Assembly: GCF_013322225.1 (NCBI RefSeq) | Contig: NZ_JAAMFB010000018.1 | Location: forward strand, 1 to 64,000 | Direction: 5' to 3' | Source: Agrobacterium larrymoorei | Lineage (GTDB): Bacteria; Pseudomonadota; Alphaproteobacteria; Rhizobiales; Rhizobiaceae | Length of the DNA: 64,000 nt | In this document: positions 22,083 to 45,071 of the stretch, one piece after another | How the letters are laid out: every line of letters starts with the position of its first letter | Position numbering within the stretch: the stretch's first letter is position 1 | Made by a program: the position numbers and the translations under genes | The notes under the pieces: model-generated | What the model was told of the DNA's origin: nothing | The model's input: the letters and a program-made list of their open reading frames with translations, nothing else | Database searches by the model: none

Positions 22083-22086
22083 GACC

Positions 22087-22995: not shown

Positions 22996-23002
22996 GGTCT
23001 GC

Positions 23003-26683: not shown

Positions 26684-29401
26684 ATGGAAAAAAGTCTGAC
26701 GCGTTACATATGGACGCATACGAAGCGCCAGCAGCTTTACATTCTGCTGATCGTCGCCTTGTCCATGATACCCTATTTTCTGGCGTTCGATCTTCCCAAG
26801 CAGATCGTCAACGGACCCATTCAGGGCGACGGCTTCGAAGGCGCGAGCGCAACGCAGCTGTTCATGCACCTCACGGTGGACATTCCCTATCTCGGAACGA
26901 TCACCCTTTTTCCGGGCATCGAACTGGACCGCATGTCGACGCTGATGGGGCTTAGCCTGACGTTTCTTGCGCTCGTCATCGTCAACGGCCTCTTCAAATA
27001 CTATATCAATACCTACAAGGGCCGCCTCGGGGAGCGCCTGCTTCGCCGTATCCGCTTCGAACTGATCGACCGGATCCTGCTGTTTCCACCTTCTCACTTC
27101 AAGCGGGTGAAGGGCGCGGAAATCTCCAGCATGATCAAGGACGAGGTCGAGCCTATGGGTGGCTTTACCGGAGACGCCTTCGTTCAACCCGCGCTTCTTG
27201 GCGGACAGGCGCTTGCCGCGCTGTTCTTCATCCTCATCCAGAACTTCTGGCTGGGTCTGATCGCCGCCTTCATGGCGGCCATCCAGGTCGGTATCATTCC
27301 GAAGATGCGCCGCCGCCTGATCGATCTCGGTCGCCAACGGCAATTGACCGCAAGACAGCTTGCAGGTCGCATCGGTGAAATGGTCGAGGGCATCGGCACC
27401 ATTCACGCCTATGATACATCCAATTACGAGCGTGCGGACGCGGCCCACCGTCTGGGTGAAATGTTCAAGATCCGTTACGACCTCTATCAGTGGAAGTTTC
27501 TGGTCAAGTTCATCAACAATTTCCTGGCCCAGCTGACGCCGTTCTTCTTCTATGCGCTTGGTGGTTATCTGACGCTACGCGGCAGCCTCGATGTCGGTCA
27601 GCTGGTGGCCGTCATCAATGCCTACAAGGAGCTTCCCGGCCCGCTGAAGGAGCTGATAGACTGGGATCAGGCGCGGCAGGACGTGCAGGTCAAATACGAA
27701 CAGGTCTTCGAACAGTTCGATAGCCCGAGCATGATCGATCCGAAGATTCAGGCCGTTTCCGCAGCCTCTGCTGCCGCAATCGCGGGCCCGATCGTGATCC
27801 AGGGTCTCTCGCTGGACGATGACAGCGGCACGCGGTTGCTGGATCAGGCCAACCTGACCATCAATCCCGGAGAAACGATTGCCGTCGTCGGCAGCGCGGG
27901 TGGGGAAGCGCTGGCCGATGCGCTGGGGCGCACGCTCTGGCCGACATCGGGAAAGATTTCCATCGGCGATATCGACCTGCACGAACTGCCGGAATCCGTC
28001 ACCGGTCGACGTATCTCCTACGTATCCGCCGAAACCTATTTTTTCCATGCAAGCCTGAAAGACAACCTGCTTTACGGCCTCAAGCACGCCCCTCTCAAGC
28101 CCAGGGAATACGAAGGCAAGGAGCTGGAACATCGCAACTGGGAAATCCGCGAGGCCAAGCTGGCGGAAAACCCGGATATCGACGTGCATAGCGACTGGAT
28201 CGACTATGAAGCGAGCCCCGCCGGCAGTGACGAACAGGAGCGCTTCCTCAAGGGCATGCTCGATGTTCTGGACACGGTGCAGCTTTCACCGGACATTCTC
28301 GAATTTGCACTGCGCTCCACCATCGATCCCCTGAACGACCTGCATCTCGCCGCCCGCATCGTCGAGTTGCGCCAGGTGTTGCGAAGCGAGATGGAACGGG
28401 AAAACCTGAGCGGCCTCATCGTGCCGTTCGAGCCCAACAGCTACAACACCGAAGCGACGGTGGGTGAGAACATCCTGTTCGGCACCATGCGCGATGCATC
28501 GACCACCAGCCGCGAGATTATCCAGAGCGACTATTTCCGCTCGCTGATGCGGGAGACAGGCCTTTCGACCACGCTTTTCGATATGGGTTACGCGATTGCG
28601 GAAAACATCGTGGACATTTTCAGCGACCTGCCTCCGGACCACCCGCTGTTCCAGCAACTGACCTTCATGACCGCGGATGAAATTCCGACTTATCAGCAGA
28701 TGTTGCAGCGACTTCAAGGCAAGGGCTATGGTGATGCGACGGAGGCTGAACGGCGCGCCATGCTGCGGCTCAGCTTCTTCTACATCGAACCGCGCCAGCG
28801 TCTCGGTCTCCTGTCGGATGACGTGATGAACCGGATCGTGGAAGTGCGTCACATGTTCTATGAAAAAATGCCGGATGAGCTTCGTAACCTGATCGAGCCT
28901 TACGATCCGGACAAGTACGCCACGTCCACGAGCCTGCTCGACAACATTCTTTTCGGCAAGATCAGCCACCGCTACACGGATGCCTCGCGACGCATCACGC
29001 GCATCGTGGCGGATGCGATGCACAAGCAGGGCCTCTATGAACGCGTGCTGGCGGTCGGGCTGGAATTCAATCTGGGCGCAGGCGGAAAACGCCTCGGCCC
29101 GTTGCAGCGGCAGAAGCTCAATCTGGCGCGCGCACTTATCCGCCGCTCTGACTATTATATCCTCAATCGCCCGCTCCCCGGGCTCGATCACAGACTGCAA
29201 CAGGAAATCGTCGACAATGTCTTCGCCTTTCTGCGGCAAGACGGAGCAAACCCGACGATCATGTGGGTGCTGTCCAACCCGGCGCTGGCGAAAATGTTTG
29301 ACCGCGTTATCGTCGTCGCGCAGGCGTGTGTTGTCGCAGACGGAACATACGAGACTCTTGTGGAAGAAAACGGTACATTCAAGGAAATGATTGCGGCTTA
29401 A
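26684..29401 (+). CDS. ABC-exporter-like protein with a degenerate, expanded nucleotide-binding domain
   Basis: A 905-residue protein. Residues 1-330 form a six-helix exporter-type membrane domain. The fused ATPase domain keeps its overall order but has lost key residues: the Walker A lysine is A409 (GSAGGEAL, 403-410), the signature is LGPLQ (804-808) not LSGGQ, and the Walker B end reads N828-R829 where Asp-Glu is expected. About 400 residues separate Walker A from the signature instead of about 100. The insert holds two similar blocks of about 44 residues (557-600 and 716-758), each ending in NILFG, and a related LLYG block at 460-465. It probably does not hydrolyse ATP in the usual way. 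No intact partner ATPase lies beside it. Confidence 0.88.
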   Translation: MEKSLTRYIWTHTKRQQLYILLIVALSMIPYFLAFDLPKQIVNGPIQGDGFEGASATQLFMHLTVDIPYLGTITLFPGIELDRMSTLMGLSLTFLALVIVNGLFKYYINTYKGRLGERLLRRIRFELIDRILLFPPSHFKRVKGAEISSMIKDEVEPMGGFTGDAFVQPALLGGQALAALFFILIQNFWLGLIAAFMAAIQVGIIPKMRRRLIDLGRQRQLTARQLAGRIGEMVEGIGTIHAYDTSNYERADAAHRLGEMFKIRYDLYQWKFLVKFINNFLAQLTPFFFYALGGYLTLRGSLDVGQLVAVINAYKELPGPLKELIDWDQARQDVQVKYEQVFEQFDSPSMIDPKIQAVSAASAAAIAGPIVIQGLSLDDDSGTRLLDQANLTINPGETIAVVGSAGGEALADALGRTLWPTSGKISIGDIDLHELPESVTGRRISYVSAETYFFHASLKDNLLYGLKHAPLKPREYEGKELEHRNWEIREAKLAENPDIDVHSDWIDYEASPAGSDEQERFLKGMLDVLDTVQLSPDILEFALRSTIDPLNDLHLAARIVELRQVLRSEMERENLSGLIVPFEPNSYNTEATVGENILFGTMRDASTTSREIIQSDYFRSLMRETGLSTTLFDMGYAIAENIVDIFSDLPPDHPLFQQLTFMTADEIPTYQQMLQRLQGKGYGDATEAERRAMLRLSFFYIEPRQRLGLLSDDVMNRIVEVRHMFYEKMPDELRNLIEPYDPDKYATSTSLLDNILFGKISHRYTDASRRITRIVADAMHKQGLYERVLAVGLEFNLGAGGKRLGPLQRQKLNLARALIRRSDYYILNRPLPGLDHRLQQEIVDNVFAFLRQDGANPTIMWVLSNPALAKMFDRVIVVAQACVVADGTYETLVEENGTFKEMIAA

Positions 29402-29447: not shown

Positions 29448-29900
29448 ATGCTTCTCAAAGATGAAATTCAGATGCTGAAGCGTGTTCCATTCTTTAGCGA
29501 GATGGAACCGTCGAAACTCAAACTTCTCGCCTTCGCATCGGATCGCGTTTCCTACCGCTCCGGCGACGAGTTGTTCCGGCAGGGCGATCTCGGCGATGCC
29601 GCCTATGTGCTGTTGACGGGCAAGGTGGACGTCCTGATCGACTCGCCAGCGGGTCAGATAAAGCTCACGGAAATGAGCGGCAACGCCATCGTCGGTGAAA
29701 TCGCCATCCTCTGCGATAGCGTGAGAACGGCGACCGTCATAGCATCCACTGAGGTGGAGGCGCTGCGGATCGGCAAGGAGCAGTTCTTCAAGTTGATGTC
29801 CGACTTCCCGGATGTTACGATCAAGGTCATGCGGGTTCTGGCCGAGCGACTGACCCAGACGACCACCGAACTCAGCAAAGCCAGATCGCTTTCGTTATAA
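29448..29900 (+). CDS. Stand-alone cyclic-nucleotide-binding domain protein
   Basis: A 150-residue cytosolic protein made only of a cNMP-binding domain (Crp-type) without helix-turn-helix. The phosphate-binding cassette is recognisable as GEIAILCDSVRTATVIA, with the Glu and Arg that contact cyclic nucleotide ribose and phosphate. The ATG at 29448 follows AGGACAAGG. It lies 46 bases after the degenerate ABC gene and two genes before a CyaC-like cyclase, so it may be the cAMP-sensing partner of one of them; this is inference. Confidence 0.88.
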   Translation: MLLKDEIQMLKRVPFFSEMEPSKLKLLAFASDRVSYRSGDELFRQGDLGDAAYVLLTGKVDVLIDSPAGQIKLTEMSGNAIVGEIAILCDSVRTATVIASTEVEALRIGKEQFFKLMSDFPDVTIKVMRVLAERLTQTTTELSKARSLSL

Positions 29901-30102: not shown

Positions 30103-30963
30103 ATGGCGTTGAAGTCCGACACCGAGCGTCGGGACAATAAGCAGGAATTCCGCGTAAAGATCTGGGGAGCAAGGGGAACGCTGCCCGTATCAGGAGAGAA
30201 ATTCCAGAAATACGGTGGCAACACGATCTGCATCGAGGTTCGATGCGGCGATCACGTTCTGCTTTTCGATGCCGGTTCCGGCCTGCAACCCGCAGGTATG
30301 GCGCTCAGAGCCGAAGGCGTGACGAACGTCGACCTGTTCTTTTCGCACTGCCACTACGACCACATCATTGGTTTTCCCTATTTCAAGCCCTTCTTCAAAC
30401 AGGAAAACGATATCCGTATCTGGTCCGGCCACCTTGCGGGACAGAAAACGACCCGCCAGATGCTGCGCGAATTCATGAGCCCGCCGTGGTTTCCGGCACC
30501 TCTCGATATTTGCTGCGCCCATATCGGCACTCAGGATTTCGAAGCAGAAGACACGCTTTCCGTTCATCCCGAGCTTTCGATAAGGACGGGTCTGCTGAAC
30601 CACCCCGGCAAAGCCATCGGCTACCGGATCGACTGGCAGGGTCGCAGTCTGGCGATTATCACCGATACGGAACATGAGCCCGGCAAGCTGGACAAGGCGG
30701 TGCTGAAGCTGATCGAAGACGTCGATCTTTTCCTCTATGACGCAAGCTTCTCCGATGCGGAGATGGAGCTTTACAAGGGCTATGGTCACTCGTCATGGCA
30801 GCAGGGCATAAGGCTGGCGAAAACGGCCAACGCGAAGAATATCGGCTTCATTCATCACGCTCCGTTCCGGACCGATGAGGAACTCGACCAGATCGATGCC
30901 GATGCCCGCAAGGAATTCGACGGGGCTTTTGCTGCCTATGATGGTCAAACGATAGATTTGTGA
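30103..30963 (+). CDS. MBL-fold metallohydrolase, possible cyclic-nucleotide phosphodiesterase
   Basis: A 286-residue metallo-beta-lactamase-fold hydrolase with the metal motif H82-C-H84-Y-D86-H87 and the early strand KIWGARGTLPVSG plus YGGNTICIEV seen in PhnP/RNase Z-like and class II phosphodiesterase relatives. No signal peptide. The ATG at 30103 follows GGGG; a TTG at 30091 is possible. It lies between a cNMP-binding protein and an adenylate cyclase, so hydrolysis of cAMP is an attractive but untested substrate guess; RNA or other phosphodiesters are alternatives. Confidence 0.85.
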   Translation: MALKSDTERRDNKQEFRVKIWGARGTLPVSGEKFQKYGGNTICIEVRCGDHVLLFDAGSGLQPAGMALRAEGVTNVDLFFSHCHYDHIIGFPYFKPFFKQENDIRIWSGHLAGQKTTRQMLREFMSPPWFPAPLDICCAHIGTQDFEAEDTLSVHPELSIRTGLLNHPGKAIGYRIDWQGRSLAIITDTEHEPGKLDKAVLKLIEDVDLFLYDASFSDAEMELYKGYGHSSWQQGIRLAKTANAKNIGFIHHAPFRTDEELDQIDADARKEFDGAFAAYDGQTIDL

Positions 30964-31175: not shown

Positions 31176-32834
31176 ATGGCGCAATTCGTGTCGGAGACTA
31201 CGTTGAGGCGCGTGCGTCTGCTCTCCGGCCTTGTCATGCTATCCTTCGTCGCAACGCATCTTTCCAACCATGCATTGGCATTGATTTCCGTCGACACCGC
31301 CGAATATGGGCGCATGTGGTTTACGCTGGTGTGGCTCAACCCCATCAGCAGCATCATACTTTACGGCTCCGTCCTAACGCACCTCATTCTGGTGCTGCGC
31401 TCGATATATCTGCGGCAAACCCTTCGTATGCCGCTTCGGGAAGCGCTTCAGATCATCGCCGGACTGATGATCCCCTATCTCATCATTGACCACGCTGGCA
31501 GCATCCGTCTCTCCCGCGTGCTGTTCGGGATCGACACCAGTTACGAGATCGTCATCTACAATTACTGGATTCGAAATCCACAACGCGGAATCTGGCAAAG
31601 CACGGCGCTGCTGGTGGTATGGTTTCACGGCTGTCTCGGCGTGTTTTTCTGGCTCCGCTATCGTGACTGGTACAAGAGGGTGTCCCCCTACCTCCTGACG
31701 GTTGCCGTCCTGCTGCCTATTCTCGCCCTTTTGGGTTTCAGCGATGCAGGCCGGGCGATGGAGTACAATCCCCCGCCACCGCACATCCGCCCCACCAATC
31801 AGGCTTCTGTGGATACCCGCGTCGGGACTTATACCGACATCATGAAAGGCCTTTTCGGTGGATCGGTGCTACTGGTTTTCGCCATGCGTGGAGTGCGAAG
31901 CTGGCGGCGACGCTCGAGCGCCATCGAAGTCCGCTATGATCACGGCGCACTGGTTCGAGCACCCCTGGGTCTCAGCGTGCTCGAAGCAAGCCGCCTCGGC
32001 GGAGTTTCGCATTTTTCCGCGTGTGGAGGAAAAGGGCGCTGTTCGACCTGTCGCGTCAGAATCCTTGGGAGCGATGGCCCCCTGCCCGCGCCCTCATCGA
32101 TGGAAAGTGCGACGCTTCAACGTATCCACGCAGATTCCGATGTAAGACTGGGGTGCCAGCTTCGACCGAAACACGGGCTGAATGTCGCGCTGCTTCTGGC
32201 ATCGAAGCAACAGGCCGATATTCCAGCAAGAGACGAACCTATTCGACCCGGTCGCGAAGAAGACATCGCCGTGCTCTTCTGCGATCTTCGCAATTTCACA
32301 GCTATTTCCGAGGCGCGCCTGCCTTACGATATGGTCTTTCTGCTGAACCGTTACTTCACTGTCGTCGGTCAGGCAGTGGAGCAGGCGGGCGGCCGGCTGG
32401 ACAAGTTCATCGGAGACGGCGCAATGGCGTTGTTCGGGCTTGAGGGTAACAAGGAGACTGCCAGCCGCGACGCCATGAAAGCTGCGGCGCATATCCTTCG
32501 CTCGATAGAAGAACTGAACGAAGAGTTGGAAAACCAGTTCGCCGTGCGCTTTCGCATTGTCATCGGCATTCACGCCGGGCCCTCCATCGTCGGCATCATG
32601 GGCTATGGCGCGGCCAAAAACCTGACCGCGATTGGTGATACCGTGAATGTGGCAAGCAGGCTTGAAACAGCTGCGAAGGAGTTCGGGACGTCGATCGTCA
32701 TCTCGGAACCGGCTATAATCCAGTCCGGGCAGGATACAGGCTCGCTGCAAAGCCGCACCATTCCCATCCGTGGACGCAGCTCCGAGATGAAGGTTTTCCT
32801 GATTTCCGAAGAGGAAAGCAGACGTTTCCTGTAG
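31176..32834 (+). CDS. cyaC: Membrane-anchored class III adenylate cyclase with ferredoxin domain (CyaC-like)
   Basis: A 552-residue three-part protein. Residues 1-240 hold about six membrane helices with several histidines (H28, H32 and others) suited to bind b hemes, like the fumarate-reductase-type diheme anchor. A 2Fe-2S ferredoxin domain follows with C283, C289, C292 (CGGKGRCSTC, a C-x5-C-x2-C spacing) and C327. The C-terminal cyclase domain has VLFCDLRNFT, FIGDGAMALFG and AIGDTVNVASRLE. This matches the redox- and quinone-responsive CyaC described in Sinorhizobium meliloti. It should make cAMP in response to respiratory redox state. The Shine-Dalgarno is GGAG. Confidence 0.9.
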   Translation: MAQFVSETTLRRVRLLSGLVMLSFVATHLSNHALALISVDTAEYGRMWFTLVWLNPISSIILYGSVLTHLILVLRSIYLRQTLRMPLREALQIIAGLMIPYLIIDHAGSIRLSRVLFGIDTSYEIVIYNYWIRNPQRGIWQSTALLVVWFHGCLGVFFWLRYRDWYKRVSPYLLTVAVLLPILALLGFSDAGRAMEYNPPPPHIRPTNQASVDTRVGTYTDIMKGLFGGSVLLVFAMRGVRSWRRRSSAIEVRYDHGALVRAPLGLSVLEASRLGGVSHFSACGGKGRCSTCRVRILGSDGPLPAPSSMESATLQRIHADSDVRLGCQLRPKHGLNVALLLASKQQADIPARDEPIRPGREEDIAVLFCDLRNFTAISEARLPYDMVFLLNRYFTVVGQAVEQAGGRLDKFIGDGAMALFGLEGNKETASRDAMKAAAHILRSIEELNEELENQFAVRFRIVIGIHAGPSIVGIMGYGAAKNLTAIGDTVNVASRLETAAKEFGTSIVISEPAIIQSGQDTGSLQSRTIPIRGRSSEMKVFLISEEESRRFL

Positions 32835-32837
32835 GCC

Positions 32838-33320
32838 TCAGATCTTGCGGTAAAGGAAGTATCTGTCCTGCGGCACCGATTGCGGAACCGGGATCGGGTT
32901 GAGGCTTGGCTCCAGCAAAGGAAGACCGCTGACGGCAATGCCGCCCGGCGCGAGCATGCCGGCCACAATCTGCGGCAGCCATGTCAGCGTAATAGCGTCC
33001 TTCTCGTCGTAACCGGTGCCGATATCGGCATGAACGAGGGCGGCACCGATACCGATATAGGCGCGGGCGGTCTGGTCGATTTCGCCCAGCACCAGATTGC
33101 CTTCCTCCGGCACGGAGGATGCATGCGCGCCCATCGCCCTGTCGAAAGCGACGATACGGCGGTCTGGAAAGAGTTCGCGCAAATGATTGAAGGTCCGTCC
33201 GTTGCCGAGACCGATTTCCATGACTGGACCTTCGTCCGAAAGATCGAGATCACCGTGGACATGGTTGAGAATGTCGCGTTGCGCGCTGAGGCGGCGAATG
33301 AAGCTGTCCAGTCTGCTCAT
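32838..33320 (-). CDS. Class I SAM-dependent methyltransferase-like protein
   Basis: A 160-residue protein with the glycine-rich SAM motif VMEIGLGNGRTF and a following acidic residue in VAFDRAMGAH. It ends three bases from the convergent cyclase gene. The substrate is unknown; it lies 13 bases after a nucleotide-sugar dehydrogenase on the same strand and may be co-transcribed with it. Confidence 0.82.
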   Translation of the reverse strand: MSRLDSFIRRLSAQRDILNHVHGDLDLSDEGPVMEIGLGNGRTFNHLRELFPDRRIVAFDRAMGAHASSVPEEGNLVLGEIDQTARAYIGIGAALVHADIGTGYDEKDAITLTWLPQIVAGMLAPGGIAVSGLPLLEPSLNPIPVPQSVPQDRYFLYRKI

Positions 33321-33333
33321 GAATGAGGCTCCA

Positions 33334-34695
33334 TCAGGCCTTTATGATGTGGGAAGCGGAAATACCACGCCGTGCAAAAGCATTGCGCGTATCGATGATC
33401 AGTGGTGCCCAATCGGCAAGCGCCTGATAGTCAATATTGTCGTGATCGGTCGCGACCAGAACGGCATCATAGGCAGCGATGCTGTCCCTGCCCCACTCGA
33501 CCGACTTCATGCCCATCAGATCGCTATAGTCGCGGGTTTTCGGAATTTCAGCCACGTAAGGGTCGAAGAAGGAGGGGTTGCCGCCACGCTCGAGAATAAG
33601 TTCGATCAGCTTGAGCGACGGGCTTTCGCGAATATCCGGTACGTTCTTCTTATAGGCGAGACCCACGATCAGCACCTTGGAACGACTGAGCGCCTTGCCC
33701 TGATGAAGATCCAGTGCTTCCGCCAGACGCCCGATGACGTGGCGCGGCATGGCTGTGTTGATCTGCCCCGCAAGCTCGATGAAGCGGGTCGGCAGTTCAT
33801 ATTCCTTGGATTTCCAGGTCAGATAGAAAGGATCGATGGGAATGCAATGTCCGCCTAATCCCGGTCCCGGATAGAACGGCATGAAACCGAAGGGCTTGGT
33901 TTTCGCCGCATCGATGACTTCCCATATGTCGATACCCATCGCCTCGTAGACGACCTTCAATTCATTGACGAGCGCGATATTGACGGCGCGGAAGACGTTT
34001 TCGGTTATCTTCACCGCTTCCGCCGTCGCATTGGTCGAAACAGGGATGACCGTTTTGACGACCGCTCCGTAGAACGATGTCATCAGTTCGGACGCATCGG
34101 ACCCATCACCGGCAACAACCTTTGGAATGGTCGAAGTCTGGAAATCGCGGTTGCCGGGGTCTTCCCGCTCCGGCGAGAAACCGAGGAAAAAGTCCTCCGC
34201 GGATTTCAGCCCGGTCTTTTCGAGGATGGTCTTGACCACGCCATCGGTCGTGCCGGGGTATGTGGTGGATTCCAGGACCACAAGCTGTCCCGGGCGAAGT
34301 GTTTTGGCGATTTCGCGGCAGGTGTTTTCGACATAGGAAAGGTCGGGATCGCGATATTTCGTCAGCGGGGTTGGAACGCAGATGGCGATCACATCGCAAT
34401 CGCCAAGTTTCGAGAAATCGCAGGTCGCTTCGAAGGTTGCGTTATCGCAGGCCGTTTTCAGGATGTCGTCAGGCACCGCTTCGATGTAGCTTTTGCGCGC
34501 CTCGATCGCCGTGATCTTGGCCGGATCGATATCGAAACCCGTCACACGGAAGCCGGCATTGGCAATCGTCATGGCAAGCGGAAGGCCGACATAGCCGAGG
34601 CCGATGACGCCCGCTCTGGCTTTTCTGGACTGGATGAGTTCGAGAAGTTTTGGTGCGTTTTGAGAGGAAGTCAAAGCGTTTTGCGCCCCGCGCAT
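33334..34695 (-). CDS. Nucleotide-sugar 6-dehydrogenase (UDP-GlcNAc/ManNAc/GalNAc type)
   Basis: Four-electron dehydrogenase of 453 residues that oxidises the C6 of a UDP-sugar to a uronic acid, supplying acidic sugars for surface polysaccharide. It has the NAD motif GVIGLGYVGLPLA and the catalytic cysteine C284 in GLGGHCIPIDPFY. That last motif is more like WbpA/WecC/TviB enzymes for N-acetylated sugars than UDP-glucose dehydrogenase. The specificity call is tentative. It is divergent from a glycosyltransferase-deacetylase pair. Confidence 0.92.
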   Translation of the reverse strand: MRGAQNALTSSQNAPKLLELIQSRKARAGVIGLGYVGLPLAMTIANAGFRVTGFDIDPAKITAIEARKSYIEAVPDDILKTACDNATFEATCDFSKLGDCDVIAICVPTPLTKYRDPDLSYVENTCREIAKTLRPGQLVVLESTTYPGTTDGVVKTILEKTGLKSAEDFFLGFSPEREDPGNRDFQTSTIPKVVAGDGSDASELMTSFYGAVVKTVIPVSTNATAEAVKITENVFRAVNIALVNELKVVYEAMGIDIWEVIDAAKTKPFGFMPFYPGPGLGGHCIPIDPFYLTWKSKEYELPTRFIELAGQINTAMPRHVIGRLAEALDLHQGKALSRSKVLIVGLAYKKNVPDIRESPSLKLIELILERGGNPSFFDPYVAEIPKTRDYSDLMGMKSVEWGRDSIAAYDAVLVATDHDNIDYQALADWAPLIIDTRNAFARRGISASHIIKA

Positions 34696-34801: not shown

Positions 34802-35899
34802 ATGAAAATCGCCATCTATTGCCCGCTGAAATCTTCTTACCACCCCGTACCATCCGGCGACCGCCTGATGGCGCGGCTGTTGATGAAGGCGATGCGGATT
34901 TCAGGGCATGAGGTGGAGGTGGTGTCGGAGTTGCGGTCGTTTGTGCGCGAGCCGGATAGCGCTGAAGCGGACGATTTGCAGAGCAGGGCCGCTACGGAAA
35001 TCGACCGCATTTCAGCTTTGTGGAAAGCGGATGGAAAGCCGGATATCTGGTTTTGCTATCACCCCTATTACAAGGCGCTGGATTTGCTTGGACCGGAGCT
35101 TTGCAAGCGCTTCGGCCTGCCCTACGTGACGGCGGAGACCTCCTATTCCCCCAAACGAAACGCCACTGGCTGGGCAAATGTTCAGGCGAGTCTTTTGGAC
35201 GATCTGCGATTTGCTTCCAGCAATATCTGCTTCACCGAGCGCGACCGCGAAGGGCTGTCGAAGGCTGACGCAACAATTCGTACAGAGATGCTGCCGCCTT
35301 TCATCGATGCCTCTCTGTTCAAGGCAAAAGCACCAAATCCCGTTAGAAACCGGCTGGCGACCGTGGCCATGATGCGCGCTGGCGACAAGCTTAGCAGCTA
35401 CCGCGCACTGGCGGAAGCGCTGGCATTGTTACCCGATCATCTCGAATGGACGCTGGATATCGTCGGCGATGGGCCCGAAAGCGAGACAGTAAAGGGCCTG
35501 TTCAGCTCGATAAAGCCAAAACGCCTGATCTGGCATGGCGAGAAAACGGCTGAAGAAATCGCCGCCATTCTCTCTCAAGTCTCGCTTTATCTCTGGCCAG
35601 GTCATGGCGAGGCTTACGGTCTCGCCTACCTCGAAGCGCAGGCAGCGGGATTACCCATCATCGCGGAAAGAATCGCTGGCGTGCCGGAGGTCGTGATGGA
35701 TGGTGAAACGGGCGTCCTGACACCTCCCGGCGACCCGCAGGCCTACGCAACAGCTATTCAGGAACTGCTGCAGAACGATGCGAGGCGACAGGCCATGGCC
35801 GAAAAAGCCCACCATTTTGCCACCGTCGAACGCTCGCTGGACAAAGCGGCGGTCCGGCTAGACAACATTCTCAAAAGCGCGCAGGAGCGCCAGCCATGA
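34802..35899 (+). CDS. Glycosyltransferase family 4 protein
   Basis: A 365-residue GT-B fold protein with the C-terminal retaining-transferase motif GHGEAYGLAYLEAQAAGLPII and IVGDGPESETVKGL. It presumably adds a sugar from a nucleotide donor to a polysaccharide or lipid-linked acceptor on the cytoplasmic face. The Shine-Dalgarno is weak. It overlaps the deacetylase gene by four bases (ATGA), so the two act together. Confidence 0.9.
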   Translation: MKIAIYCPLKSSYHPVPSGDRLMARLLMKAMRISGHEVEVVSELRSFVREPDSAEADDLQSRAATEIDRISALWKADGKPDIWFCYHPYYKALDLLGPELCKRFGLPYVTAETSYSPKRNATGWANVQASLLDDLRFASSNICFTERDREGLSKADATIRTEMLPPFIDASLFKAKAPNPVRNRLATVAMMRAGDKLSSYRALAEALALLPDHLEWTLDIVGDGPESETVKGLFSSIKPKRLIWHGEKTAEEIAAILSQVSLYLWPGHGEAYGLAYLEAQAAGLPIIAERIAGVPEVVMDGETGVLTPPGDPQAYATAIQELLQNDARRQAMAEKAHHFATVERSLDKAAVRLDNILKSAQERQP

Positions 35900-36639
35900 C
35901 CGAAAAGCTTCTGCTGGAAACGCTCGATGACTTCGCTACCAAAGGCCGTATTGCCGATTTCTGGCTGCGCGACGACGATGCGATAGAACCGACTGCCGCA
36001 CTGGATCGGCTGCTTGATCTTTCGGAGCAATTCTCCGTTCCGATGACGCTCGCCGTCATACCTCAACCGACCGGCGAGGCGCTGGCGGGGCATCTGGATG
36101 GAAACGCAAAAATCGATATTGCCGTACACGGATGGGCGCATCGCAACCATGCAGGAGCGGGTGAGAAAAAGCGTGAACTCGGCCTGCACAGGCCGAAAGA
36201 CGTTGTTCTCGATGAACTGAAGGCCGGTTATAACAAGCTTGCGAAGCTGTACGGCAGCCGCTTCGTGCCGATGCTGGTGCCGCCTTGGAATCGTATCGAT
36301 GATGCTATTGTTGAGGCACTGCCGGATTTTGGCTATGAGGCGCTCTCGGTTTTCGGGCCAGAAAAATCTGCCCCGGTTTCCCTCATCAACACGCATGTGG
36401 ATGTGATCGACTGGCGCGGAACGCGTGGTGGACGAAACCATGATGTCCTGTTTGCCGAGACCGCCGCCAGGATCGAGGAAGCGCATGAGACCGGCGGTAC
36501 GACCGGCATTCTGACGCATCACCTTGACCACGATGAAAGCGTTTGGTTGTTCCTGCAAAGGCTCTTTACACTGACTGCGAACCATCCTGGATGCCGCTGG
36601 CGCGCATCGTCCGATATCGTCAAAAACCTTTCACCATGA
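35896..36639 (+). CDS. Polysaccharide-deacetylase-like (NodB homology) protein
   Basis: A 247-residue protein with hallmarks of carbohydrate esterase family 4: an acidic RDDDA segment (D26-D28) and H78-G-W-A-H82, the usual metal-binding histidines, followed by a late ILTHHLDHDE. No signal peptide is visible, so it may act in the cytoplasm on an N-acetylated sugar intermediate. It is coupled to the preceding GT4. Its end overlaps the convergent GT32-like gene by nine bases. Confidence 0.85.
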   Translation: MTEKLLLETLDDFATKGRIADFWLRDDDAIEPTAALDRLLDLSEQFSVPMTLAVIPQPTGEALAGHLDGNAKIDIAVHGWAHRNHAGAGEKKRELGLHRPKDVVLDELKAGYNKLAKLYGSRFVPMLVPPWNRIDDAIVEALPDFGYEALSVFGPEKSAPVSLINTHVDVIDWRGTRGGRNHDVLFAETAARIEEAHETGGTTGILTHHLDHDESVWLFLQRLFTLTANHPGCRWRASSDIVKNLSP

Positions 36640-37593
36640 TTTCCAGGCAATCAGCAAACCATCACCAGAAAGCGATGCGTGCTGGCGCGCCAACTCGACA
36701 TCGCTGAACGGCGCTCCATCTTGCAGAAAAGCGGCAACGAAATCGGCATTTGCGAGACTAATGGACCCGGCGCGCGCCACCACCGTAAAGATCAACGGAC
36801 CCGTCGCCCACCACGCGGGAGCCTTTGGCAAGGCTTCGAGAATGTGGGGAAAGGCTTCAAGCATACGGGAAAAAACCGGATGGCCCGGTGGTGAAGCGAT
36901 GAAGGAATTGGCAAGCAGCAGACTACCTCTCCCGGTCTTGCGTGGTACGTCTTCCGCAAAGGCCGTCAGCCCGATCATCGGCAGCACATCACTGAAACTC
37001 AGATCGTCGCGTGCCGGATAAAAATCGCAGTCGAGATAAATACCCCCGAAGCGGGACAGAATGACGTAGCGCGCCACATCGACCGCACCGGGATAATCGC
37101 CGCCCGCAAGCATTCGGGCAAAAATGGGATTCGAGGCGATACCCTCCTGCTCCAGATCGGCCTCGCGCCACAGACGATAAGTGTAGCCTTGGGCCTCAGC
37201 GTGACGCGCCCACGCTTCAGTCGAAACCGGAACCGGCTTTTCTCCGATCCATATCTGATGGATGACCTTCGGCACCGCCTCACGGTTCTTCCGAGCAATC
37301 GCCCGCTTCTCTTGAACTGAGAAGCGCCCATATGGCTCGAATGTTTCCGGCGGCGGGACGAGCAGATATTGATATCCGATCCGGCTCAGCGCATTGCCTT
37401 CCGCTTTGGCAAGACGAAGATGCGCCGAGTGAAGCCTGCGCGGCAGACCAAGCGCGGTTTCCTCACCCATCAGACGTTGGTCTTCTTCGCGCGACAGAAG
37501 AGCGAGAAGAGCACGCGCACCGGCAAAATCTCCGGCTGCCGCCATCTGCCGGATTTCAACAAGTTTCGTGTCGAAATAAGCTTTGTCAGGCAT
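36631..37593 (-). CDS. Glycosyltransferase with DXD motif (GT32/TcdA-like)
   Basis: A 320-residue protein with VPKVIHQIWIGEKPVP and the metal- and sugar-nucleotide-binding D188-C-D190 in GIYLDCDFYP. These are typical of GT32 sugar transferases (Och1/capsule type). An N-terminal helical region of about 100 residues precedes the catalytic part. It faces the deacetylase convergently and is divergent from the peptide ABC operon. Confidence 0.87.
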   Translation of the reverse strand: MPDKAYFDTKLVEIRQMAAAGDFAGARALLALLSREEDQRLMGEETALGLPRRLHSAHLRLAKAEGNALSRIGYQYLLVPPPETFEPYGRFSVQEKRAIARKNREAVPKVIHQIWIGEKPVPVSTEAWARHAEAQGYTYRLWREADLEQEGIASNPIFARMLAGGDYPGAVDVARYVILSRFGGIYLDCDFYPARDDLSFSDVLPMIGLTAFAEDVPRKTGRGSLLLANSFIASPPGHPVFSRMLEAFPHILEALPKAPAWWATGPLIFTVVARAGSISLANADFVAAFLQDGAPFSDVELARQHASLSGDGLLIAWKSW

Positions 37594-37779: not shown

Positions 37780-39672
37780 ATGAGCGCAGGCACTGATCTG
37801 CTTCGCATAGAAAACCTGCAAGTCTCCTTTTCGCTGATGGGCGGAAAAATAGATGCCGTAAGAAATGCCAGTCTTCGTATATTGCCTGGAAAAGTAACGG
37901 CTCTCGTCGGTGAATCCGGCTCCGGAAAATCCGTGATTGGACAGACCGTTATGGGCATCCAGCCGCGCACGGCAAGCGTCAATGGTCGCGTGCTGTTCAC
38001 CGACCCGGCGCGCCCCTCAGATATTCCCGTCGATCTTCTGCAACTGGAACCGGATGGCAAGCCCATGCGGGCGATCCGTGGCAATCGCATCGGCCTGATC
38101 TTTCAGGAGCCGATGACGTCATTCTCGCCGCTCCACACCATCGGCAACCAGATCGATGAGGCACTGCGCATCCATAGCGTCCTGACGCCAAAGGAGCGGC
38201 AGGAAAAAATAGAAGAAACGCTTGATCTCGTCGGATTTTCCAATCCGAAAAAGATCTGCAATATGTATCCGTTCGAGCTTTCCGGAGGTATGCGCCAGCG
38301 CGCCATGATCGCCATGGCGTTGATCTGTCGCCCGGCGCTGTTGATCGCCGATGAGCCGACAACCGCGCTCGACGTGACGATACAGGCGCAGATCCTCAAG
38401 CTCTTGCGAGACCTGCAAAGCCGGCTCAACATGAGCATGCTGCTGATCACCCACGATCTCGGCGTCGTCGCCAATATCGCCGATGAAGTCGCCGTCATCT
38501 ATCAGGGCGAGATCATGGAAGCGGGCAAGGTGGACGACATCTTCCGCGCGCCCGCACACCCATACCTCAAGGGCCTGATGGCCGCCGTACCGCATTTCGA
38601 CATGAAGCCGGGGGAGCGCCTGAAGGCGCTTCGCGAAGTGACGGTCGACAAGGAAAGCCTGATCGGCAAGAAAACCGAGACCGTCGACAAGGCGCCCGGC
38701 GTATTGCTGAAAGTCGACAACATCAGCAAGACCTTCACCACGCGCAAATCCAGCTGGTTCACCTCCGGCAAATCCAGCGCGACGAAGGCGGTGGACGGCG
38801 TCAGCTTCGAGATCATGCGTGGTGAGTGCCTTGGCCTTGTGGGTGAAAGCGGCAGCGGCAAAACGACCGTCAGTAAAATCCTGATGCGCGCCGTGCGCCC
38901 CGATGAGGGCTCCATCACCTTCCACAGCAAAAGCGGCGATATAGACGTCCTCAACGCCAACGACGACAATCTGCGCGAGTTGCGGACGAAAATCCAGATG
39001 GTGTTTCAGGACCCTATCTCCTCACTGTCTCCGCGCATGACGGTCGGCAACATCCTGAGCGAGCCACTGCAAATCCATGGGCGCGGCGATTCCAAATATC
39101 GCTCGACGCGGGTGCGCAACCTGCTGCGCGCCATCGGCCTCGGCGACAGCGCTCTCAACCGTTATCCGCACAGTTTCTCCGGCGGCCAGCGCCAGCGTAT
39201 CGGCATTGCCCGCGCGTTGATGCTCGGCCCGGAGCTGCTGATCTGCGATGAGCCCGTATCCGCGCTGGATGTCTCCGTGCAGGCGCAAATCCTTAATCTG
39301 TTGAAGGATTTGCAGAAGGATCTGGGACTGACTTACCTCTTCATCTCCCACAATCTCGCCGTGGTCGATTACATGGCGGATCGCGTGGCGGTGATGTGCG
39401 AGGGTAAGATCGTCGAGCTTGCGCCGCGTGAAACGCTGATGCGCAATCCCGTGCATCCCTATACGAAATCTCTTCTGGCTGCCGTTCCCTTCCCTGATCT
39501 CGACCGGCCTCTGGATTTCAACACCATCGGCAAGATCAGTGCGACCGGCAAGTTCGACTGGGGCAAACAGTTCCGCGATGAGCGTGACGGGAAACTCGTT
39601 ACTGCCGATCTGGGCGGCGGGCATCTGGTGCTTGCCAATGCCAATGCCGATGTGCGGGAGTTACGGTCTTGA
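37780..39672 (+). CDS. Peptide-type ABC importer, fused double ATP-binding protein
   Basis: A 630-residue protein joining two ATPase domains (DppD-DppF or YejF type). Both have intact motifs: GESGSGKSV with [13 protein letters not shown] and [12 protein letters not shown] in the first half, then GESGSGKTT with [13 protein letters not shown] and [12 protein letters not shown] in the second. AAGGGA precedes the ATG. It is the first of seven tightly spaced genes and its stop overlaps the TTG start of the binding protein. Confidence 0.94.
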
Positions 39673-41570
39673 TCACGCGCCGCACCACCCTTGCGCTTCT
39701 GGCCTCGGTCTTCCTTCCCTTGAAGGCGTTCGCCGCCTACAAGGATTCGGAATTCTTCAAGGAAAAGATCGAGAAGGGCGAACTTCCTCCGCTCGATCAG
39801 CGCCTGCCGAAGAACCCGCGTGTCGTGAACCTGAGCCAACTCGGCCGCGAACCGGGCAAACACGGCGGCACAGCGCGTATCCTGATTGGCGGACAGCGCG
39901 ACATCCGCCTTATGCCGATCAATAGCTACGCCCGGCTGGTGGGCTATAACGAGAAGTTCGAGTTTCAGCCGGATATTCTGGAATCCTATACCATCGATGC
40001 GGAGCGTATTTTCACGCTGAAACTGCGCGACGGCCACAAATGGTCGGATGGCAGCGATTTCACCACGGAAGACTTCCGCTATTTCTGGGAGGACGTGGCG
40101 CTCAACCGGGAAATCCACAAGGGCGGGCCACCGATCGAGCTTCTGGTGTATGGCAAGCCGCCAGTGGTCGAGGTCATCGACAAACTCACCGTGAAATATA
40201 CATGGGAAGGTCCGAACCCGGACTTTCTGGCCAAGCTGGCTGGTGCAACGCCTGCGCGCCTGTTCCTGCCAGCCGCTTACATGAAGCAGTTCCACAGCAA
40301 GTATCAGACACCGGAAAACCTTGCCAAACTGGCGAAGAAGAACAAGGTCGATGACTGGAGCAGCCTGCACATCAAAATGTCGCGGCAGCTACGCCCTGAA
40401 AATCCCGACCTACCGACGCTGGATGCCTGGCGCGTCGTCAACGCCCCGCCTGCCGAACAGTTCATATTCGAGCGCAATGCCTATTATCACCGTGTCGACG
40501 AAAACGGCCTGCAGCTGCCCTATATCGACCGATTCCTCCTCAACGTCACCTCATCGGAGATCATCGCCGCCAAGACGGCATCGGGCGACAGCGACTTGCA
40601 GTTCATGGGGCTCGATTTCAACGACTATACCTTCCTAAAGGACGCGGAAGACCGCTACCCGGTGAAGGTCAGTCTGTGGAAGCGCAGCCAAGGCTCGCGC
40701 GTCTGCCTGCTGCCCAATCTCAATAGCGGCGATGAGGTATGGCGCAATCTGTTTCGCGATGTGCGAATGCGCCGGGCGCTTTCGGTTGCCATAAACCGGC
40801 ATGAGATCAATATGGTCTGCTTCTATGGGCTGGCCAAGGAAAGTGCCGACAGCATTTTGCCGGACAGCCCTCTGTTCAAGCCGGAATTTGCTACCGCGTG
40901 GGCGCAGTTCGACCCTGATCTGGCAAATCGGTTGCTTGATGAAATCGGGCTGACGAACCGCAACGACAAAGGCATAAGGCTGCTGCCGGATGGCCGACAG
41001 GCGCATATCATCGTGGAGACCTCCGGCGAAAGCACGCTGGAAACCGATGTGCTGGAGCTGATCACCGATCATTGGCGCCACATCGGCATTTCGCTCTCCA
41101 GCAGGCCGACGCAGCGCGATGTTTTCCGCAAGCGCGCCATGGGCGGCGAGGTGATGATGTCTGTGTGGTTCGGTATGGACAACGCCATTCCAACCGCAGA
41201 CATGCTGCCCTCGGGGCTTGCGCCAACGGGCGACGACCAGCTTCAGTGGCCGGTATGGGGCGTGCATTATCTTTCCGGGGGACGAGAGGGCAAGGAGCCC
41301 GACCTGCCGGAAGCCATCCGTCTTCTCGAACTCTTCAAGCAGTGGCGACGCAGCGTGACGGACGAGGAGCGCCGGGCGATCTGGCTGGAAATGCTTTCGC
41401 TTTACACCGACCAGGTCTTTTCCATCGGCACCGTCAATAGCGCGCTTCAGCCCATCGTGCATGTGAAGAAAATGCGCAACGTGCCGGAAAAGGCGCTCTA
41501 CGGTTTCGAGCCGACTTCCTATCTCGGTGTCTATATGCCGGATGCATTCTGGTATGACGGGGACGCGTGA
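39669..41570 (+). CDS. Peptide-type ABC importer, substrate-binding protein (SBP_bac_5)
   Basis: A 633-residue periplasmic binding protein, large for the family. The TTG start overlaps the ATPase stop (TTGA) and gives a signal peptide [22 protein letters not shown] with paired arginines that may direct Tat export. The mature part shows the family pattern [22 protein letters not shown] and [18 protein letters not shown]. Ligand unknown; the operon mates are glycosyltransferases, so a glycopeptide, opine-like compound or cell-wall peptide is possible. Confidence 0.92.
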
Positions 41571-41571
41571 C

Positions 41572-42570
41572 ATGCTGAGATATATCATCGGTCGCATCCT
41601 CGTCATGATCCCGACCCTGATCCTCATTTCGATGCTGGTTTTCACCATCATCGAACTGCCGCCGGGGGACTACTTCGAAAGCTATGTCGCTGAAATGCGA
41701 GCGCTGGGCGAAACCGCCAACATGGCCGAAATCGAAGAGTTGCGCGTTCGCTACGGCTTCGATCAGCCAGCGCCGATCCGCTATTTCCGCTGGGCGACCG
41801 GTATGCTGGTCGGCGACTTCGGGTACTCGTTCGAATACCAGCTTCCGGTCAACGAGGTTGTAGGTGATCGCCTGTGGCTGACCATTCTGGTGTCGTTCTG
41901 CACGATCATCGTCACCTGGGTTCTAGCATTCCCGATCGGCATCTATTCCGCCACGCACAAATACAGCTGGGGCGATTACGGCCTCACCTTCTTCGGGCTT
42001 CTCGGCATCGCCATTCCAAACTTCATGCTGGCGCTGATCCTGATGTATTTCGCCAATGTCTGGTTCGGCACATCCATCGGCCATCTGATGGATCGCGAAT
42101 ATCTGAACCAGCCGATGAGCTGGGACAAATTCAAGTCCATTCTCGAGCATCTTTGGATCCCGGTTCTCATCATCGGCACGGCGGGAACGGCGGGCATGAT
42201 CCGCCGCCTTCGGGCCAATCTGCTGGATGAGTTGCAGAAGCAATATGTGGTGACGGCGCGCGCGAAAGGACTTCATCCCTTCAAGGTGCTGATGAAATAT
42301 CCGCTGCGCATGTCGCTCAACTTCTTCATTTCGGATATCGGCTCAATTCTGCCCGCGATCATCTCCGGTGCCGAAATCACCGCCGTCGTCCTGTCTCTGG
42401 AGACGACCGGCCCGATGCTGATCCGTGCTTTGCAAAGTCAGGACATGTATCTGGCGGGCTCGTTCCTGATGTTCCTCGCCTTCCTCACCGTCATCGGCGT
42501 GCTGGTGTCAGATATCGCGCTTGCCATTCTCGACCCTCGCATTCGCTTTGGAGGCGGTAACGTCAAATGA
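41572..42570 (+). CDS. Peptide-type ABC importer permease 1 (DppB-like)
   Basis: A 332-residue inner-membrane permease with about six helices. The N-terminus MLRYIIGRILVMIPTLILIS and the coupling-loop region LLDELQKQYVVTARAKGL are typical of DppB/YejB. The ATG at 41572 lies one base after the binding-protein stop; the frame is open upstream but that part lies inside the previous gene. Confidence 0.93.
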   Translation: MLRYIIGRILVMIPTLILISMLVFTIIELPPGDYFESYVAEMRALGETANMAEIEELRVRYGFDQPAPIRYFRWATGMLVGDFGYSFEYQLPVNEVVGDRLWLTILVSFCTIIVTWVLAFPIGIYSATHKYSWGDYGLTFFGLLGIAIPNFMLALILMYFANVWFGTSIGHLMDREYLNQPMSWDKFKSILEHLWIPVLIIGTAGTAGMIRRLRANLLDELQKQYVVTARAKGLHPFKVLMKYPLRMSLNFFISDIGSILPAIISGAEITAVVLSLETTGPMLIRALQSQDMYLAGSFLMFLAFLTVIGVLVSDIALAILDPRIRFGGGNVK

Positions 42571-43742
42571 CTTCTTCCATTCCAAAGCCCGGCGAAGATT
42601 TGCCGCACTACGTCTCAACCGCGCCATTCGACCCCTATCTGGTGGAACCGGCAACCGGCGGTCTGGCGATGGTTGGTCGTGCCTCGCAATTGAAGTTGAT
42701 GTGGTGGCAGTTCAAGCAGCACAAGCTTGCGCTCTATTCCGGCATCTTCTTGCTTTTCATGTATTTTTCGATCGTGGTCTGCGAGTTTCTTGCCCCGTAT
42801 AATCTGCACACCCGCGACGTCGAAAACATCTATGCCCCGCCGCAGCGCATCCACCTGTTCCACGATGGGCAATTCGTCGGTCCCTTCGTATATGGCCGCA
42901 CCCAAAGCCTCGACATGGAAAACCTTCGCCGGGTTTATGTGGACGTGCCGACGGACGTACAAAAGCTGCGGTTCTTCTGCCGGGGAGACGACTATCGTTT
43001 CTGGGGCCTGTTCGACAGCAACGTACATCTCGTCTGCCCTGCCAAAGACGGTAATATGTTCCTGCTCGGCACGGACCGTCTGGGTCGGGACGTGCTATCG
43101 CGCATCATCTACGGCGCGCGCATTTCGCTGACCATCGGCCTTCTGGGCGTCGCCATGAGCTTCGTTCTCGGTATCGTGATCGGTGGGCTTGCCGGGTATC
43201 GCGGTGGCGTTTGCGATCTCATCGTTCAACGCATCATCGAGGTTCTCCAATCCATCCCCAGCATTCCGCTCTGGCTTGCGCTTGCGGCCATCATGCCGGT
43301 AACATGGAGCCCTATCCTCGTTTATCTCGGCATAACCATTATCCTCGGACTTCTGGACTGGACCGGACTTGCGCGTGCCGTTCGCTCAAAACTTCTGGCG
43401 CTGCGTGAAGAAGACTATGTTCTCGCCGCGCAATTGATGGGCGCGAAAACGAGCCGTATCATCGGCAGGCATCTCATTCCCGGCTTCATGTCCCACCTCA
43501 TCGCGTCGGCGACATTGACCATTCCGGGCATGATTTTGGGCGAGACCGCGCTCAGTTTCCTAGGGTTGGGCCTTCGTCCACCGATCACAAGTTGGGGCAT
43601 TTTGCTCACGGAAGCGCGAAGTGTGAGCGTGATTGCGCTTTATCCGTGGCTTTTGCTTCCTGTTATCCCCGTGGTTCTTGTGGTGCTTGCCTTTAATTTC
43701 CTTGGCGATGGACTACGTGATGCGGCAGATCCTTTTAAATGA
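42567..43742 (+). CDS. Peptide-type ABC importer permease 2 (DppC-like)
   Basis: A 391-residue partner permease with a long periplasmic segment after the first helix (about residues 70-165) and then the family motif FLLGTDRLGRDVLSRIIYGAR. The coupling loop is LLALREEDYVLAAQLMGA. The extended loop resembles the YejE type rather than plain DppC. It overlaps permease 1 by four bases. Confidence 0.93.
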   Translation: MTSSIPKPGEDLPHYVSTAPFDPYLVEPATGGLAMVGRASQLKLMWWQFKQHKLALYSGIFLLFMYFSIVVCEFLAPYNLHTRDVENIYAPPQRIHLFHDGQFVGPFVYGRTQSLDMENLRRVYVDVPTDVQKLRFFCRGDDYRFWGLFDSNVHLVCPAKDGNMFLLGTDRLGRDVLSRIIYGARISLTIGLLGVAMSFVLGIVIGGLAGYRGGVCDLIVQRIIEVLQSIPSIPLWLALAAIMPVTWSPILVYLGITIILGLLDWTGLARAVRSKLLALREEDYVLAAQLMGAKTSRIIGRHLIPGFMSHLIASATLTIPGMILGETALSFLGLGLRPPITSWGILLTEARSVSVIALYPWLLLPVIPVVLVVLAFNFLGDGLRDAADPFK

Positions 43743-43829: not shown

Positions 43830-45035
43830 GTGACCCCTCGTTTGAACGATGCCCGCATTCTCATGTACAGCCATGATTCTTTCGGGCTGGGACACCTGCG
43901 CCGTTGCCGGACCATCGCCCATGCGCTGGTGGAAGACTATCGCGGCCTGAATGTCCTGATCATTTCCGGTGCAACCATCGCCGGTGCTTTCGACTATCGG
44001 ACGCGGGTGGATTTTGTAAAAATCCCAAGCGTCATCAAGTTGAGGAACGGGGAATATACCTCGCTCGATCAGCACATTGACCTTCAGGAAACCCTGAAGA
44101 TGCGCCGCTCAATCATCTATCATACGGCGGAAAGTTTTCAGCCGGACATCTTCATCGTCGACAAGGAGCCGATGGGCCTGCGTGGCGAGGTCGAGGAAAC
44201 GCTGACCTATCTCAAATCCAGGGGCACGAAACTCGTGATCGGCCTGCGCGACGTCATGGATGCGCCGCAGTTGCTGGAGGCCGAATGGAAGCGCAATGAT
44301 GTGCTCAACAAGATCGAGCGTTACTACGATCACGTCTGGGTTTACGGCCCCCCGGATTTCCACGATCCGCTGACGGGCCTCGATGTCCCGCAACCGGTGC
44401 GCGACAAGATGGATTTCGTGGGCTTTTTGCAGCGTTCCAAGACGCAGGCCGAACCGAGCCATCGGCATGACGGCGACTACATTCTGGTGACGACGGGCGG
44501 CGGCGGCGATGGCAGCGAGCTAATCGATGACGTCATCCGCGCCTATAAGGCTGACCGCAGCCTGACGCAGAAGGCACTTGTGGTTCTTGGACCCTACATG
44601 CCAGCAGAGCAGCGCCAGAAATTTGCCCACAGCGTCGCCGATATTCCGCATATGGAAATCATCGAATTCGACAACCGTATGGAAGACCTCGTCGCAGGCG
44701 CGCAGGCCGTCGTCTCCATGGGTGGCTACAACACGGTCTGCGAAATTCTCTCCTTCGACAAGCCAGCGCTGGTGGTACCGCGCATCGTTCCGCGTGAGGA
44801 GCAGTTGATCCGGGCCAGCCGGGCATCTGAACTCGGCCTGTTCGACATGCTTTCACCGGAAGACGCAGAAAATCCGCTGCGTATGGCGCAAGCGCTGAAA
44901 GCAGTGCTGAAGCGTCCGCCGCCATCGGCAAACGGCAGAAATCTCAAGCTGGATGGACTGGAGAACATCTCCCGTCGTATAGCCGAGTGGCTTCAGCCGG
45001 ACGACACGTCCCAGATCATGTCGGCGACCGCGTGA
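43830..45035 (+). CDS. MurG-like (GT28 C-terminal) glycosyltransferase
   Basis: A 401-residue GT-B protein beginning MTPRLNDARILMYSHDSFGLGH from a GTG start after AAGAAGG. The GLGHLRR motif and the later VSMGGYNTVCEILSF match UDP-sugar-binding GT28/MurG-like proteins. It lies 87 bases after the permease gene and is related to the third transferase in this run (46316). Acceptor and donor are unknown. Confidence 0.88.
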   Translation: MTPRLNDARILMYSHDSFGLGHLRRCRTIAHALVEDYRGLNVLIISGATIAGAFDYRTRVDFVKIPSVIKLRNGEYTSLDQHIDLQETLKMRRSIIYHTAESFQPDIFIVDKEPMGLRGEVEETLTYLKSRGTKLVIGLRDVMDAPQLLEAEWKRNDVLNKIERYYDHVWVYGPPDFHDPLTGLDVPQPVRDKMDFVGFLQRSKTQAEPSHRHDGDYILVTTGGGGDGSELIDDVIRAYKADRSLTQKALVVLGPYMPAEQRQKFAHSVADIPHMEIIEFDNRMEDLVAGAQAVVSMGGYNTVCEILSFDKPALVVPRIVPREEQLIRASRASELGLFDMLSPEDAENPLRMAQALKAVLKRPPPSANGRNLKLDGLENISRRIAEWLQPDDTSQIMSATA

Positions 45036-45071
45036 CGCGCCGTCTCCCATTTTGAAAGAAGGCACGCAGCC

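Follow-up and report, generated by a model that had tools for sequence, protein, structure and literature searches.

The window analysed here, a stretch of 64,000 nucleotides of Agrobacterium larrymoorei DNA, encodes a member of a conserved and selected family of ABC exporters that, as read from their sequences, are without a complete set of ATP motifs, carry an insert with a repeated segment, have a cyclic-nucleotide-binding (CNB) partner, and are often encoded in glycan clusters. The reading frame from 26684 to 29401 on the plus strand is uninterrupted and encodes 905 aa, in which Pfam finds ABC_membrane at 85-311 (E 7.9e-22) and, of ABC_tran, the first part only (386-480). The AF2 model of this protein (pLDDT 82.6, pTM 0.76) has an ABC exporter fold, and full-length exporter structures align with approximately 410-445 of its residues, in keeping with the membrane region and fold of a type IV ABC exporter. 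The model suggests that the half-size ABC exporter architecture is retained, with a membrane domain and a motor domain that keeps its predicted fold. The other 23 matches to the protein in its own genome are all incomplete, and the best of them reaches only 54 bits, vs 2038. The features of the protein are as follows, with the basis of each in brackets.

26684..29401, plus strand: ABC-exporter-derived pseudo-transporter, 905 aa (ORF, Pfam, AF2 model, ABC exporter fold)
26684..27718, plus strand: transmembrane domain, residues 1-345 (Pfam ABC_membrane)
27818..27820, plus strand: D379 at the A-loop position, where both canonical controls have Tyr (alignment)
27890..27913, plus strand: degenerate Walker A, residues 403-410, with E408 in the S/T column (alignment)
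28028..28078, plus strand: residues 449-465, comprising a Q-loop with A449 for Gln and the native DNLLYG, the first of the repeated copies (alignment, hhalign)
28082..28939, plus strand: insert within the NBD, spanning about 286 residues from 467 to 752 (alignment, spacing, separate model)
28337..28501, plus strand: repeat copy 1, residues 552-606, with R563 and N596 (hhalign)
28814..28975, plus strand: repeat copy 2, residues 711-764, with R722 and N754 (hhalign)
29093..29107, plus strand: degenerate ABC signature LGPLQ, residues 804-808, LSGGQ in the controls (alignment)
29153..29170, plus strand: degenerate Walker B YYILNR, residues 824-829, with N828-R829 for D-E (alignment)
29273..29275, plus strand: H-loop position S864, His in the controls (alignment)

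The motif columns were read in an alignment with two canonical exporters that the same genome encodes, and six features were scored: GxxxxGK[ST], the Q-loop Gln, [ST]GG[QEM], the Walker B Asp, the Walker B Glu/Asp, and the H-loop His. None of the six is present in the window protein. The losses of the Walker A Lys, the signature and Walker B that an earlier note on this DNA had described are thus confirmed against the two canonical exporters, and the Q-loop and H-loop residues are lost as well. By alignment, the A-loop, where Asp379 stands for an aromatic residue, is a further lost site beyond the motifs of that note. The Walker A pattern GxxxxGK[ST] that a type IV exporter should have was not found in the window protein, which has G406-G407-E408 where the two canonical exporters have G-K-T. 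The earlier placing of the Lys column at Ala409 holds for an ungapped count, whereas the family alignment, in which the P-loop is two residues shorter, puts Gly407 in this column; there is no Lys either way.

A query with the insert alone gave matches in 59 of 190 genomes of the class (own genome included), or 52 of 168 genera, which is about a third of the alphaproteobacterial genomes sampled. A profile built from 41 inserts was run on a sample of 398 genomes from the whole phylum, of which 32, counting the own genome, gave a match. The class of the window accounts for 31 of these 32; the remaining genome was marginal (E 7e-4) and was dropped, as its stretch (L202) yielded no complete reading frame that the insert profile recognises. 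Among named genomes, a scan gave at least 407 relatives, and the best 80 of these were used. From the 142 stretches collected, 141 full ORFs were obtained (L202 missing), which together with the window make 142 full-length proteins. Among these, none of the six features is kept in 89, one in 32, two in 14, three in 7, and more than three in 0. Homologues with intact Walker motifs, which the earlier note had named as the sign of an aberrant copy or a misalignment, do occur in part: GxxxxGKS together with the Walker B DE is retained in 3 of the 142, all of one genus, but the same three are without the signature, the Q-loop Gln and the H-loop His. A signature of the [ST]GG[QEM] type, in the form LTGGQ, is found in 9/142, and the Walker A Lys column is retained in 24/142. 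The three GxxxxGKS-DE proteins and the nine with LTGGQ make residual nucleotide binding possible in some members. Across the alignment, the losses and the insert are broadly shared by the 142 proteins, and motif loss is, at the level of sequence, a property of the family and not of a single damaged gene.

The losses do not look random. Asp or Glu occupies the A-loop position in 137/142 proteins, and Glu or Asp the Walker A Ser/Thr position in 118/142. Since the A-loop aromatic residue contacts adenine and the Walker A Ser/Thr contacts magnesium-phosphate, acids fixed at precisely these positions are unexpected from neutral decay and suggest an ATP-excluding or re-purposed pocket. Acid 408 and base 803 were considered as a candidate salt-bridge lock where the two chains of the dimer meet, but a test on independent pairs of the tree (7 pairs, median p 1) did not support it; in the 66 tree rows, both residues are present in 39, neither in 12, and one only in 15. 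The family tree was made by a quick method, with 23 of 70 inner branches open and long-branch warnings, and only its well-supported clades are used here.

The gene is under purifying selection, with dN/dS values of 0.07-0.14 against 8 close relatives. Mean pairwise identities, calculated for 30 family members, are 0.58 in the membrane domain (83-345), 0.45 in the NBD core and 0.47 in the insert, whereas the values for 27 canonical exporters from the same genome set, which are mixed paralogues and represent those of 30 loci that passed a length and motif filter, are 0.33 in the membrane domain and 0.60 in the motor. The family thus reverses the usual order of constraint, its membrane domain being kept better than its motor, and the well-conserved membrane domain favours a substrate- or partner-specific role for this domain.

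The approximately 300 extra residues that had been noticed between Walker A and the signature lie at about 467-752. The spacing between N461 and N754 is 248-363 in the 142 family rows, with a median of 291, vs 24 and 32 in the two canonical controls, and an insert of about 290 aa is conserved across the family. Modelled alone, it reaches a pLDDT of 90.6 and is predicted to fold on its own. The suspicion of repeated copies of the DNLLYG region in it is borne out by hhalign, in which the profile of 545-612 matches that of 704-770 with 99.1% probability (E 8.8e-19) and the native segment 425-475 matches the two insert copies with 86% and 91%, while seven control comparisons of unrelated protein parts gave at most 1.3%. 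Two further high-scoring pairs were discounted, U1/U2 because they are overlapping stretches and U0/U1 because it is the R1/R2 match again. By profile comparison, then, the insert contains two copies resembling the native Q-loop/NxLYG segment, with a similarity above chance. R563 and R722, one in each copy, are both invariant (142/142 rows each). A search with the insert found no match to a known nucleotide-binding family. The naming of DNLLYG as the x-loop region does not hold, as this motif opens the helical subdomain that follows the Q-loop; the true X-loop lies N-terminal to the ABC signature.

Downstream of the pseudo-exporter gene lie a CNB gene and a row of further genes, with the glycan cluster extending to 47479.

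29448..29900, plus strand: stand-alone CNB protein of about 150 aa from its conserved MLLxDE start, in an ORF that opens at TTG 29391 (PF00027)
30103..30963, plus strand: MBL-fold hydrolase, RNase Z- and cyclic-nucleotide phosphodiesterase-like below model cut-offs, with an HCHYDH motif
31176..32834, plus strand: class III nucleotide cyclase with an N-terminal part and a Fer2 domain (PF00211, PF00111)
32838..33320, minus strand: Methyltransf_17 protein (Pfam)
33334..34695, minus strand: nucleotide sugar dehydrogenase (TIGR03026 above cut-off)
34802..35899, plus strand: GT4-type glycosyltransferase
35896..36639, plus strand: polysaccharide deacetylase-like protein (PF01522 just at cut-off)
36631..37593, minus strand: DXD sugar-binding glycosyltransferase-like protein (PF04488)
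37780..43742, plus strand: oligopeptide-type ABC importer inside the cluster, with ATPase, binding protein and two permeases
43830..47479, plus strand: three glycosyltransferases, GT28-like, GT4 and GT28-like

The CNB gene is a near-constant companion. It is present downstream on the same strand within 1.5 kb in 123/141 loci, and in two more (L036 and L053) the CNB domain that follows directly is part of an over-long ORF, giving 125/141 loci in all; in a further 11/141 the CNB domain is fused to the C-terminus of the pseudo-exporter. The suggestion that a cNMP-binding neighbour goes with this protein is therefore strongly supported as an association. A Pfam check of 9 long proteins found the CNB fusion in 7, the other two being L053 and L193, and the fused forms make up one clade of 11 rows (support 99). 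In one other clade (L190, L193, L194, L195 and L197; support 100), the pseudo-exporter gene is not directly followed by a CNB gene; weaker CNB matches were seen at a greater distance in L194 (approximately 1.4 kb further on) and L197 (approximately 4.4 kb), and none was found in L190, L193 and L195. This clade is long-branched and has a shorter insert (spacing 248-264). CRP/PKA-type domains bind their ligand through a phosphate-binding cassette, GE(I/L)A...R(T/S)A. Among the 135 CNB sequences compared (window, 123 downstream and 11 fused), the Gly of the ligand site is present in all 135, its Glu in 128 and its Arg in 134, and the partner in the window has both the Glu and the Arg of the cassette. 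The ATP site has thus been lost, whereas the site for cyclic nucleotides has been kept. In the CNB partner (162 aa), Pfam at E <= 0.01 finds cNMP_binding only and no helix-turn-helix DNA-binding domain.

Some of the fused loci have features of their own. L070, L072 and L073 in one genome, and L200 and L201 in another, belong to a single bacterial family with two to three CNB-fused paralogues per genome; L070 adjoins an exporter-type ABC protein, and a gene near it presumably encodes an HlyD-type protein. In L186, an MBL-fold hydrolase-like gene (4547-5383) lies directly upstream of the CNB-fused pseudo-exporter, whereas the MBL gene of the window lies downstream.

Neighbour counts were made in 80 stretches, the best 80 of at least 407 relatives, and in 59 others, the plasmid stretches L074 and L075 being excluded. 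At least one glycosyltransferase homologue is present in 76/80 of the former (best 80 of at least 407) and in only 35/59 of the others, so the glycan link is not universal. Cyclase homologues occur in 28/80 and MBL homologues in 39/80 of the best 80 of at least 407 relatives, and in 10/59 and 7/59 of the others; being present in a minority of loci, they do not point to local nucleotide turnover as a general feature. The N-terminal part of the window cyclase reads as membrane-spanning, and its Fer2 (ferredoxin-type) domain would suit a redox-sensing cyclase. Many NCBIfam oligopeptide importer models match the importer at 37780-43742, for which YejF and YejA are working labels only; a count of importer-ATPase loci was set aside, as it was inflated by general ABC ATPases. 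This importer stands between glycosyltransferase genes in the window, and importer, glycosyltransferases and pseudo-exporter are also found together in Shinella and S. meliloti. On the other side of the pseudo-exporter, at 20901-26475, genes for an acyl-CoA dehydrogenase-like protein, an amino acid:[acyl-carrier-protein] ligase (NF005479 above cut-off), a DUF1839 protein and a glycoside hydrolase 2-like protein follow in a row that looks like another co-transcribed set.

Two published loci appear to correspond to this arrangement. According to excerpts of a Tn-seq study (PMC9790009), a yejABEF mutant gained fitness when Atu2577, a putative exporter of Agrobacterium, was mutated; mutations in a sugar dehydrogenase and in three glycosyltransferases from the same cluster also improved its fitness. 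The authors regard this cluster as the likely source of an uncharacterised glycan that is reportedly required for phenazine tolerance. The window genes follow this cluster one-for-one in gene order, with the pseudo-exporter for 2577, the dehydrogenase for 2582, the GT4 protein for 2583 and the two GT28-like proteins for 2590 and 2592. The window cluster is thus probably the counterpart of the Atu2577-2592 glycan cluster, and Atu2577 probably a member of the same family. In S. meliloti, genes for the polysaccharide PPP matter for phazolicin tolerance, A. tumefaciens orthologues of PPP genes emerged from a pyocyanin screen, and cAMP is a reported regulator of genes potentially involved in PPP synthesis, all according to excerpts of PMC10128002; 7 of 9 PPP genes are up-regulated under predation, as stated in an excerpt of PMC10315480. 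A pseudo-exporter is encoded on S. meliloti pSymB (strain 1021 among others), and on pSymB of strain ml46 it adjoins a CNB gene annotated as Crp/Fnr family, a glycosyltransferase and importer genes. We infer that this pSymB locus is the PPP locus. Motif loss, insert and CNB link go without mention in the published excerpts on the Atu2577/PPP cluster (PMC9790009, PMC10128002, PMC10315480), and in the literature searched, with few subscription papers and most texts in part, none describes the insert or the CNB fusion of this family, or calls it ATP-dead.

Taken together, the loss of the ATP machinery, the folded insert, the CNB partner and the glycan genes indicate that the protein may be a switchable gate or scaffold and not a pump. 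The explanation that we put forward, and to which we give an even chance, is an ATP-independent, cyclic-nucleotide-controlled pseudo-exporter that would serve the export or assembly of an envelope glycan; its ATP independence, its control by cyclic nucleotides and its role in glycan export or assembly each seem probable from the losses, the partner and the cluster, respectively. Two copies of the pseudo-exporter would form the usual dimer, with contacts of the insert and the partner taking the place of ATP in holding it together. On binding cAMP or cGMP, the CNB domain would shift the dimer, so that the membrane domain opens, closes or docks, a step (CNB binding moving the ABC dimer) that we purely infer. 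The change in the membrane domain would gate the export, or scaffold the assembly, of the glycan from the neighbouring glycosyltransferases, which would be the PPP polysaccharide in Sinorhizobium and the Atu2577-2592 glycan in Agrobacterium. In the window, the adjacent nucleotide cyclase and phosphodiesterase-like hydrolase would set the level of the ligand.

A narrower form of this mechanism, a ligand-gated and ATP-free ABC gate or flippase for the envelope glycan in which CNB-bound cyclic nucleotide replaces ATP and the insert of duplicated helical-subdomain segments holds the dimer, is tentative in our estimate. Just as tentative is a pure regulator or scaffold without transport, whose membrane domain would anchor and organise the glycosyltransferases or another transporter; sulfonylurea receptors have a comparable regulatory role for their potassium channel. 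Catalytic features would not be needed for this, all six motor features are absent in the window protein and in 88 others of the 142, and a docking platform could make use of the folded insert and of the CNB partner. However, the membrane domain is conserved better than the motor, and no second exporter-like membrane protein is seen among the annotated genes of the window cluster. An unorthodox ATPase, in which the insert or other residues form a new nucleotide site and ATP is still bound or hydrolysed, could draw on the invariant repeat residues R563 and R722 and on the 24 proteins that keep the Walker A Lys column, but it is unlikely given the acids at the A-loop (137/142) and at the Walker A Ser/Thr position (118/142) and an insert that matches no known nucleotide-binding family.

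Single degenerate ABC sites occur in heterodimeric exporters, where each composite ATP site takes Walker A/B from one chain and the signature from the other. The window protein could be such a degenerate half, as in TM287/288 or TmrAB, paired with an intact half-exporter encoded elsewhere; its own genome has at least 7 canonical exporters, and single degenerate sites have precedents in such exporters, according to abstracts. Yet the window chain has lost both motif sets, so that without its Walker A/B and its signature neither site of a heterodimer would be canonical, and a partner chain was not found nearby: among the 141 stretches, which span 5-39 kb, just two hold another exporter-type match, and one of these matches is a piece of 238 aa. 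We regard this pairing as very unlikely. Finally, a decaying or aberrant copy without function, which the absence of all six features from the window copy might suggest by itself, is already contradicted by the dN/dS of 0.07-0.14, by losses and an insert that are broadly alike throughout the 142 family proteins, and by the Tn-seq phenotype of the Agrobacterium gene in the excerpt of PMC9790009, and is barely credible. The observation of the earlier note is confirmed, and its pseudo-exporter reading is supported by the family-wide losses, by the purifying selection and by a predicted model that retains the ABC fold; its interpretation as a whole, including control by the CNB neighbour, is partly supported.

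Compared with known systems, the pseudo-exporter stands apart in several respects. Homodimeric exporters of the type IV fold such as MsbA, PCAT1 and ComA differ from the window protein, which is without their Walker A, signature, Walker B, Q-loop and H-loop residues, and the insert of about 290 residues and the CNB partner set the window family further apart from them. PglK-like, ATP-driven flippases of lipid-linked glycans share with the window gene a location in a glycan cluster, but not the loss of the ATPase motifs. The cassette of CRP/PKA-type CNB domains is kept in the partner, whose near-constant neighbour is here a membrane protein. With TM287/288, TmrAB and MsRv1273c/72c, the window protein has in common the fold and the idea of a degenerate site (excerpts of PMC7756269 and PMC12038006), but in its chain Walker A/B and signature are all gone, and no conserved partner gene lies nearby. 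The regulatory ABC proteins SUR1/2 are still nucleotide-responsive according to an excerpt of PMC4699857, whereas the window protein is bacterial, half-size and accompanied by a CNB partner.

ABC exporters are usually viewed as ATP machines, with single dead sites known from heterodimers. If the proposed explanation is true, a large and selected clade of motif-less full-length exporters with a CNB sensor would show that the exporter fold can be re-used as a switchable gate or platform. It would also provide a concrete and testable mechanism for an uncharacterised envelope glycan that excerpts of the published papers tie to phazolicin tolerance in Sinorhizobium and to pyocyanin tolerance in Agrobacterium, and the energy source, if any, that moves this glycan would become directly testable.
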